Of a stretch of 45,603 nucleotides of DNA, positions 36,935-39,061 are shown one piece after another. Under the pieces are notes generated by a model that did not search any database, was not told the origin of the DNA, and saw only the letters and a program-made list of their open reading frames with translations. The position numbers and the translations under genes are program-made. Numbering within the stretch: the first letter of the stretch is position 1; each line of letters opens with the position of its first letter. The stretch comes from Bacillota bacterium (GTDB lineage: Bacteria > Bacillota > Sulfobacillia > JAJYWN01 > JAJZPE01). Where the stretch lies: positions 1 through 45,603 of the forward strand of contig JAJYMC010000035.1 of the NCBI GenBank assembly GCA_021787335.1. The letters run 5' to 3'.

Positions 36935-38104
36935 TTACTCCCCCGCCCTCCCGACGAGGACGAAGTCCCCGCTCTTGACCTGGAAGATGAAGATGCTCCC
37001 GCCAGTCATGTCGCCGTGGTCGTCGAAGCCGATGGGCGCGCCGAGGATGCCGACGTAGCCCTTGGTCCCGTGGACGCCCGCCAGGACGTCGGCCCGGGTC
37101 ACCTTGCCGTCATGGGCCGCCGCCGCGTCGGCGATGCCCTTGAGGAGGATGTTGGTGGCCTCGTAGCTCTGCCCGGCGAAGATGCTCATCCCGCCGTACT
37201 TGGCCTCGAAGCGGGCCACGAAGTCCTTGGCCGCGGGGACGTCCTTGAGGGACGGCGTGATGCTGGTGACGTAGGCCCCTTCGAGGGCCGGCCCGCCCGC
37301 CTTGGCGAACTGGTCGCGCTCGTAAAGCCCGTCGCCGCCCATGATTCCGGCGGTGATGCCGGCCGCCCGCATCTGCTTGGCGATCATCGCCCCCTGGGCC
37401 GGGTCGGGGAGAGCCAGGAAGACGAGGTCGGCGCCGGAGGCCTTGACCCGGCCGAGGATGGGCGAGAATTCCTTGTCGTCGGACGTCACCTGGCCGCGGG
37501 TCACGCTGGACAGGCCGAGCTTCGGCAGGGTCGCCGCGACCTGGTCGGCCAGGCCCTGACCATAGGTACTCTTATCGTCGATGATGAAGACCTTCTTGGC
37601 CTTGATCTGCTCGGCGATGAAGCGGGCCGCCGCCGGCCCCTGCTGGTCGTCGCGCGGGCAGACCCGGTGCATGACCTTGTAGCCGCTCTCGGTCAGGGCC
37701 GTGTTGGTCGCCGACTGGGAGATGATGACCAGACCGGCCTTTTCGTAGATGGGTAGAGCGGCGTTGACGGTGCCGCTGTTCATCGGGCCGATGACCCCGA
37801 CCAAGGACTTGTCGGCGGCCAGCTTCTCCGCGGCCACCGTGGCCTTGGCCGGCTCGGCGCCGTCATCGGCGACGACCACCTTGACCTTGACCCCCTTGAG
37901 CTTGCCGGAGGCGTTGAACTCGTCGACGGCCATCTTAATGGCGTTCAGCGAGTCGAGGCCGATCTTGGACAGCGACCCGGTGAACGGGCCGGCCGCCCCG
38001 ATCTTGATCGTCCCCTGGCCGCTCGAGCAGCCAGCCAGAGCGGCCGGGACGGCCAGGGCCAGAGCGGTGATGAGGATGAGCGACAGCGCTTTCTTGACGG
38101 ACAT
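36935..38104 (-). CDS. livK: HAAT-family ABC transporter substrate-binding lipoprotein
   Basis: 389 aa. Lipoprotein signal peptide with lipobox LAGC (Cys about residue 26), then a type I periplasmic-binding fold with two lobes: IKIGAAGPFTGSLSKIG, VIGPMNSGTVNAALPIYEKA, VIISQSATNTALTESGYKVM, KKVFIIDDKSTYGQGLADQV and GDGLYERDQFAKAGGPALEG are typical of LivJ/LivK. The ligand cannot be read from sequence. The Trp-type T-box immediately upstream (38213-38531) argues for tryptophan or another aromatic amino acid rather than Leu/Ile/Val. The ATG is preceded by GGGAGGGG. Confidence 0.93.
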   Translation of the reverse strand: MSVKKALSLILITALALAVPAALAGCSSGQGTIKIGAAGPFTGSLSKIGLDSLNAIKMAVDEFNASGKLKGVKVKVVVADDGAEPAKATVAAEKLAADKSLVGVIGPMNSGTVNAALPIYEKAGLVIISQSATNTALTESGYKVMHRVCPRDDQQGPAAARFIAEQIKAKKVFIIDDKSTYGQGLADQVAATLPKLGLSSVTRGQVTSDDKEFSPILGRVKASGADLVFLALPDPAQGAMIAKQMRAAGITAGIMGGDGLYERDQFAKAGGPALEGAYVTSITPSLKDVPAAKDFVARFEAKYGGMSIFAGQSYEATNILLKGIADAAAAHDGKVTRADVLAGVHGTKGYVGILGAPIGFDDHGDMTGGSIFIFQVKSGDFVLVGRAGE

Positions 38105-38212
38105 TGGAACCCCTCCCTGTTTGGCCCGCGCGTCGCGGATCGCGCCCGCGGGCTACTTGTGGACCTGTTGGTCCGAGAGGAGCGGGGGCTGCGGGCCGGA
38201 AGCCCATCGGCG

Positions 38213-38254
38213 GAAAACAAAAAGCCTCCGTCCCTAAAAAGGGGACGGAGGCTT
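38213..38254 (-). terminator. T-box regulated terminator
   Basis: Minus strand: AAGCCTCCGTCCC-loop-GGGACGGAGGCTT stem of 13 bp, then TTTTTGTTTT. Its 5' arm (CCGTCCC) also serves as the 3' arm of the antiterminator, so it forms when the T-box tRNA is charged. Confidence 0.95.
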
Positions 38255-38531
38255 GCTTCCGCGGTGCCACCCCGATTGGCGTCCAAAGAACAGACGCCCT
38301 CTCGTCACGGGTACCAACATACCCGCTCCCGGTTAACGGCCGGAGCTCCGGCTACCCCTGATGGCTCGGCGACGCGTTCCGCGGACGCGGTCTCGGCGCG
38401 AGGTCCATTCGGGTTGCGGCTCACGGGCCCATTCGACTCGCTCGCTCGGACCGGTCTCCCACTGTCACCGGCTCGCTTGGCGGAGCTACCGCGGGTCTAC
38501 TCTCCCCGTTCATCGCTCTTGTCTGCTGTTG
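38213..38531 (-). ncRNA. T-box leader with tryptophan (UGG) specifier
   Basis: tRNA-sensing leader on the minus strand. The T-box sequence GGGGTGGCACCGCGG lies at 38259-38273. Stem I has base helix CGGG (38505-38508) with CCCG (38424-38427), the AGAGTA S-turn strand (38498-38503), and opposite it GAA-TGG-G, with specifier TGG at 38429-38431 and closing pairs GAC/GTC. The distal loop CCGGTGACAGTGGGAGACCGG has the expected AG-bulge neighbour AAGCGAG. The antiterminator bulge UGGC pairs with tRNA 3' end GCCA, matching the G73 of bacterial tRNA-Trp (Leu, Ile and Val tRNAs carry A73). Uncharged tRNA-Trp should allow transcription of the downstream transporter genes. Confidence 0.9.
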
Positions 38532-38537
38532 GCAGTA

Positions 38538-38567
38538 ATAATACCCCAGAGCCCGGACGGCTGTCAA
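38538..38567 (-). promoter_or_regulatory. Promoter of the T-box / transporter operon
   Basis: Minus strand: perfect TTGACA at 38567-38562, 18-base spacer, TATTAT at 38543-38538. The -35 box overlaps the stop codon of aroQ. Transcription would start near 38531, right at the T-box leader. Read-through from the aro operon would pass the same T-box. Confidence 0.8.
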
Positions 38568-39061
38568 GCGTGAGTCGTAGATTTGTCGTGAGTCGTAGAT
38601 TTGTGAGTCGTAGATTCTTCCGAGAGCAGCCTGGCGATGGCCTGGACGGCCAGCTCATAGGCGTTTGCGCCGAGCCCGGCGATGAATCCGGTCGCCGCCT
38701 TGGCGGTCACCGACCGGCGCCTGAACGGCTCGCGGGCGAAGATGTTCGACAGGTGGACCTCGATGACCGGCGCGGCGCAGGCGGCCACGGCGTCCAGCAG
38801 GGCGATGGAGTAGTGGGTGTAGGCCCCCGGGTTGAAGATGATCCCGACGAAGCCCTCCTCGTCGGCGTGGTTCAGGGCGGCGACGAGTTCCCCTTCCCCG
38901 TCGTGCTGGCGGAAGTCGCAATCGAACCCCAGGAGGTCGGCCTGAGCCTCGACGCGGGCGTTGAGTTCGGACAGGGTCAGGCGCCCGTAGACGCCCGGCT
39001 CGCGGCGCCCGAGGATGCCCAGGTTCGGTCCGTTGAGGACGAGCAGTTTCGGTCTTGGCAC
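38564..39061 (-). CDS. aroQ: 3-dehydroquinate dehydratase, type II
   Basis: 165 aa. Third step of the shikimate pathway: 3-dehydroquinate to 3-dehydroshikimate. The active-site Arg20 and Tyr25 lie in LGRREPGVYG, followed by IIFNPGAYTHYSIAL and the His103 segment EVHLSNIFAREPFRRRS. The normal enzyme ends at about residue 147. The last 16 residues are three STTH repeats (STTHKSTTHDKSTTHA) encoded by 16-base direct repeats at 38570-38617, an unusual tail. It follows aroKB by 3 bases and its stop overlaps the next promoter. Confidence 0.95.
   Translation of the reverse strand: MPRPKLLVLNGPNLGILGRREPGVYGRLTLSELNARVEAQADLLGFDCDFRQHDGEGELVAALNHADEEGFVGIIFNPGAYTHYSIALLDAVAACAAPVIEVHLSNIFAREPFRRRSVTAKAATGFIAGLGANAYELAVQAIARLLSEESTTHKSTTHDKSTTHA
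38570..38617 (-). repeat. Three 15-16-bp direct repeats at the 3' end of aroQ
   Basis: GTGAGTCGTAGATTTG at 38570-38585 and 38588-38603, and GTGAGTCGTAGATTC at 38603-38617. They encode the STTH repeats of the AroQ tail. Probable slippage product; copy number may vary between strains. Confidence 0.8.

Follow-up and report, generated by a model that had tools for sequence, protein, structure and literature searches.

A LIV-type importer operon preceded by a tryptophan T-box in a Bacillota bacterium, and its most likely substrate

The livK-livH-livMGF operon in the window, i.e. the whole stretch of 45,603 nucleotides analysed here, appears to encode a LIV-type importer (LivK, LivH and a fused LivMGF protein) governed by a transcription-terminating tryptophan T-box, and the main substrate of this importer is most likely L-tryptophan. 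LIV-type transporters are numerous, and homology nearly always labels them as branched-chain amino-acid importers. In the present case, the RNA switch, the apparent lack of biosynthesis and a binding pocket peculiar to the clade jointly point away from a branched-chain substrate, and the operon may be considered a clean, testable example of wrong substrate annotation. A tryptophan importer would also fill an apparent metabolic gap, as the organism seems to make chorismate and probably makes tyrosine through tyrA, but seems to lack the tryptophan branch.

The operon and its leader RNA

All elements lie on the reverse strand, in the order aroQ, promoter, T-box leader, terminator, livK, livH and a 917-residue frame. 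The livK gene (38104-36935) encodes a HAAT-type substrate-binding lipoprotein of 389 aa with the lipobox LAGC and a Peripla_BP_6 domain (PF13458), and livH (36933-35944) encodes a PF02653 permease. In the third gene (35931-33178), livM, livG and livF are fused into a single 917-aa open frame, which combines a permease (PF02653 at residues 42-315) with two ATPase domains (two ABC_tran stretches, and BCA_ABC_TP_C at 612-635). The operon therefore has the full HAAT composition, namely a PF13458 binding protein, two PF02653 permeases and two ATPase domains with BCA_ABC_TP_C. The curated NCBIfam cut-offs for Liv proteins are not reached by any of the components (LivK, 204.2 versus 477 bits; LivH, 239.9 versus 379; LivG, 331 versus 362; LivF, 316 versus 441). 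Seven HAAT binding-protein matches were found in the genome to which the window belongs, and this livK is the only one preceded by a T-box.

The covariance model RF00230 matches the leader at 38522-38238 over its full length (model positions 1-219; 87.2 bits, E 1.3e-19), covering Stem I, linker, Stem III and antiterminator. This match was obtained in E-value mode; the Rfam gathering score being 93, a default scan overlooks the leader. Indeed, the window genome yielded 19 T-boxes, every one of them under 93 bits, so that default annotation would overlook them all. Upstream of the leader lies a sigma-70-type promoter, TTGACA-N18-TATTAT (38567-38538), with 11 of 12 consensus matches, as compared with a mean of 0.0 such matches in shuffled sequences. 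The possession of a separate promoter indicates that the liv operon probably starts independently of the aro operon. Downstream, the antiterminator carries a UGGC bulge (38269-38266) able to pair with the GCCA-3′ end of tRNA-Trp, and its 3′ half is shared with an intrinsic terminator (38254-38222; -24.3 kcal/mol, z -7.1). The antiterminator, with its UGGN bulge, and the terminator are thus mutually alternative structures, which is the arrangement of a transcriptional T-box.

Antitermination by uncharged tRNA is the established mode of action of T-boxes, and the present switch would presumably act in the same manner as its characterised counterparts. Upon tryptophan shortage, uncharged tRNA-Trp(CCA) would accumulate and its anticodon would read the UGG codon of Stem I, while its GCCA end would pair with the UGGC bulge and stabilise the antiterminator; with the antiterminator formed, transcription would pass the terminator and the importer would be made. 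Tryptophan would be scavenged in this way because the cell makes chorismate but apparently has no tryptophan branch.

Specifier codon and discriminator base

In the Rfam alignment of the liv leader, UGGG is flanked by the conserved GAA and the closing helix, which places the tryptophan codon UGG at 38431-38429, on the 3′ strand of the specifier loop. The two strands of this loop are GAGAGUA (38504-38498) and GAA-UGG-G (38434-38428), and the loop is closed by the helix ACGGG/CCCGU, formed by 38509-38505 with 38427-38423. The rule implicit in this assignment, by which the codon is followed by a single base and then by the helix, was extended to the other T-boxes of the window genome, where codons were read by eye and compared with the downstream genes. 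Codon and gene agreed in every T-box for which both could be read: leuS (CUC, two T-boxes), ileS (AUC), hisD (CAC), pheS (UUC), glyQ (GGC), valS (GUC), metG (AUG), thrS (ACC), aspartate-tRNA(Asn) ligase (GAC), cysS and cysE (UGC), tyrS (UAC), proS (CCC/CCA) and trpS (UGG). The last of these, as the second UGG T-box of the genome, serves as an internal control. Three T-boxes fall outside the calibration, namely L018, whose tested frame has no NCBIfam match, L011, whose contig ends before the gene, and L019, whose specifier is unreadable.

The same codon was recovered in the leaders of orthologous operons. All 20 leaders, that of the window included, carry UGG as the specifier, in the context GA(A/G)-UGG-(G/A), and they come from eight families; for five of them (L109, L113, L114, L115 and L120) the reading relied on pattern instead of the covariance model. 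Taken by itself, Stem I folds no more stably than shuffled sequences (z -0.52), and covariation among the orthologous leaders was used in place of folding energy. In the helix adjoining the codon, 93.7% of the cells are paired across 19 leaders, and 16 cells are doubly changed, as compared with 6.2 in shuffles (none of 500 as high); sliding the partner strand by one base destroys this covariation. The tryptophan T-box that the sequence-only reading had placed before livK is therefore upheld by the covariance model, by the in-genome calibration and by the survey of orthologous leaders, the structure-aware alignment giving UGG and no other codon.

A variant of the specifier loop occurs in families f63 and f109, in which GAG replaces GAA before the codon and the 5′ strand reads AAGAU in place of AGAGUA. 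It is found in leaders L111, L113, L115, L116, L118, L119 and L120, of which L113 is truncated and does not include the 5′ strand.

The antiterminator bulge had been put forward as a second, independent signal for tryptophan, on the grounds that UGGC demands a G73 tRNA. The fit itself is confirmed: the single tRNA-Trp of the window genome has the anticodon CCA and G73, the tRNAs for Leu and Val carry A73, and the bulge reads UGGC in 19 of the 20 leaders, with UGGU in L110 as the exception. However, UGGC is not specific to tryptophan, since G73 is also present in the Asn, Asp, Gln, Ser and some of the Arg tRNAs of this genome. The bulge is accordingly in agreement with tryptophan but is weaker than had been claimed and does not constitute independent proof. 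The discriminator base taken alone was rejected as a criterion, in view of the several tRNAs with G73, the UGGU of L110 and an exception at proS described at the end of this article.

Distribution of the transporter and tryptophan biosynthesis

The search for orthologs covered two sets of genomes, one for the class (154) and one for the phylum (398). LivK proteins approximately 51-91% identical to that of the window were found in nine families (f1, f4, f15, f24, f28, f63, f96, f109 and f119), and T-box leaders were obtained from all of these but f119. In all contexts read, livK is followed by livH and livM/G/F homologs, the latter mostly fused in a single frame some 830-1020 residues long. In the tree, the orthologs group in one clade (support 100/99) that leaves out the next HAAT binding protein encoded in the same genome. 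No Leu, Ile or Val T-box precedes any ortholog found. The T-box is absent from the orthologs of genera g136, g162 and g189, as well as from those in Spirochaetaceae and Thermoleophilia MAGs (assigned to other phyla), and its presence on the tree requires 5 changes, which fits either one gain followed by losses or repeated gains.

Searches for TrpA and TrpC found neither in the window genome, which is 96.9% complete, nor in that of its congener, whereas they were positive in 14 of 14 control genomes. Among the 398 phylum genomes, TrpC exceeded the cut-off in none of the 21 carriers of the transporter, as opposed to 252 of the 377 non-carriers (Fisher p 2.7e-10). As carriers cluster in few families, such p-values overstate independence; counted by genus, the association has p 4e-5 under strict scoring and 9e-4 when a single weak match is admitted. 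For the class taken by itself, the relationship between the transporter and loss of TrpA is not significant (p 0.21); the statistical weight lies with the phylum sample. Most owners of the transporter thus seem, from their gene content, unable to make tryptophan. TrpA and TrpC are kept in four carriers, implying that the importer is more than a mere substitute for biosynthesis.

These data bear on the proposal, made in the sequence-only reading, that the transporter imports tryptophan or a precursor. Import of tryptophan itself is supported by the lack of detectable TrpA and TrpC and by the link between the transporter and the absence of TrpC. Import of indole, anthranilate, shikimate or chorismate appears, on the contrary, very improbable, because precursors, salvage of indole through TrpB aside, could not be converted to tryptophan without TrpC and TrpA, neither of which was detected in the window genome. 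The adjacency of the aro genes, which might be taken to favour a precursor, does exist: aroQ (38564-39061) is the last gene of an upstream aro/tyrA cluster that extends to 45473. Among the contexts read, however, this neighbourhood is limited to the window and the congener G003, and other families have no aro neighbours, so that it carries little weight; as general evidence, the chorismate neighbourhood was rejected, being limited to one genus. Some HAAT-like binding proteins (4evs, 4evq and 4dqd) do bind aromatic acids, but LivK retains T102 and acidic residue 226, two presumed amino-acid contacts.

One may also ask whether the operon encodes an ordinary Leu/Ile/Val importer whose T-box, acquired by chance or borrowed, is irrelevant to the substrate. 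Homology names and structural neighbours are indeed all LIV-type, in agreement with the expectation that homology would name this system a branched-chain transporter, and T-boxes can move between genes (PMC2494555). Nevertheless, the 20 leaders, drawn from eight families, have all retained UGG despite the divergence of much else, carriers are strongly associated with the absence of TrpC, and LivK and LivH score far under their curated cut-offs. Taken together, these observations leave such a coincidence with hardly any likelihood.

In the three genomes examined from genera without a T-box (G201, G264 and G229; loci L139, L144 and L145, one each from g136, g162 and g189), livK-livH-livMGF follows a gene for aldehyde:ferredoxin oxidoreductase. 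4Fe-4S domains are also encoded upstream in all three loci, and TIGR04076 in two of them. Aldehyde:ferredoxin oxidoreductases oxidise aldehydes derived from amino-acid fermentation, and this neighbourhood suggests a catabolic use of the importer in these relatives, with amino-acid uptake coupled to fermentation.

Binding pocket and specificity of the importer

The AlphaFold2 model of LivK (pLDDT 89.2) has as its nearest folds LivK, LivJ and related amino-acid receptors, several of them with Leu or Ile bound. In alignment with E. coli LivJ, S79, T102, Y150 and the acidic residue 226 are kept, which we take, from the LivJ and LBP structures, to be the contacts with the amino-acid backbone. At other pocket positions, all the aligned Bacillota orthologs depart from LivJ, with Y replaced by I at 18, L by M at 77, P by Q at 99, Y by P/A/S at 202 and W by G at 278. 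The resulting loss of bulky residues would leave room for a large ligand; since other HAAT proteins also vary at these positions, the changes serve as supporting evidence only.

A T-box reports the amino acid that is sensed and not every amino acid that is carried, and HAAT binding proteins can be broad in ligand range; the importer may have a wider hydrophobic or aromatic specificity. In its fullest form, this explanation would have the importer carry aromatic and branched-chain amino acids alike and be controlled by tryptophan because the latter runs out first in organisms that do not make it. The nearest solved folds and the conserved backbone contacts are compatible with such a transporter, and the E. 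coli LIV-I/LS system also carries Phe. Furthermore, Wels et al. argue that a single T-box can control LIVCS carriers of more than one specificity (PMC2494555). On the other hand, the side-chain pocket shows a constant pattern of departures from LivJ across the Bacillota clade, and the orthologs found are devoid of Leu, Ile or Val T-boxes. We consider such breadth rather unlikely and retain L-tryptophan as the probable main substrate. It is tempting to extend this conclusion to the whole HAAT clade, which spans at least nine Bacillota families and MAGs of two other phyla, and we incline, by a small degree, to regard it as a dedicated high-affinity tryptophan importer. If so, the clade would represent a further structural class of tryptophan transporter, replacing biosynthesis where trp genes have been lost.

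Tryptophan T-boxes, and transporters under their control, are already known. Streptococcus suis, a tryptophan auxotroph, uses the tryptophan ABC importer TrpXYZ, for which control by uncharged tRNA-Trp through a tryptophan T-box has been shown (PMC9382623). In the Bacillus cereus group, NSS-family carriers homologous to TnaT have tryptophan T-boxes, their function being predicted from the specifier (PMC2494555). The latter resemble the present system in being transporters under a tryptophan T-box, but they are sodium symporters, unrelated to ABC importers. The likeness to streptococcal TrpXYZ is closer, as in both cases a tryptophan T-box precedes an operon for binding protein, permease and ATPase in organisms that lack, or seem to lack, tryptophan biosynthesis. 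TrpX, however, belongs to the PF04392 (ABC_sub_bind) family, whereas the binding protein of the window is a PF13458 protein that PF04392 does not match, and its partners are LivH and the LivMGF fusion, not TrpY and TrpZ. Membership of TrpXYZ was rejected on this basis, PF04392 having no match in the window genome at all; a TrpX-like PF04392 protein is present in most carriers of families f96 and f63. With E. coli LIV-I/LS (LivJ or LivK with LivHMGF), the system shares HAAT architecture, fold and the conserved backbone-contact residues, and it differs in its changed pocket, LivMGF fusion, tryptophan T-box and sub-cut-off Liv scores. No report of a HAAT transporter under a tryptophan T-box was found in the literature searched, which did not extend to the main T-box survey (doi 10.1261/rna.819308), so that an earlier mention is possible.

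Some further features of the window and its genome deserve mention. At its 3′ end, immediately before the liv promoter, aroQ contains three tandem copies of the 18-nt unit CGTGAGTCGTAGATTTGT (38569-38619), which was found nowhere else among the fetched loci; the repeats are in frame and would lengthen the C-terminus of AroQ. The proS T-box (L016:1501-1749, contig C50) has a UGGC bulge even though all tRNA-Pro found have A73, which breaks the usual rule. The window genome has two leuS genes (L001 on contig C8 and L010 on contig C7), each with its own Leu (CUC) T-box. In the former (L001:1501-1796, contig C8:22640-22935), a complete tRNA-Ala(GGC) gene, the only one of this specificity found in the window genome, lies inside the Stem III loop. 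Both leader and nested tRNA are kept in three genomes of the family (L153 in G003 and L154 in G002 being the others), and the tRNA sequence is near letter-for-letter identical in all three. Excision of the nested tRNA by RNase P could sever the leuS leader.
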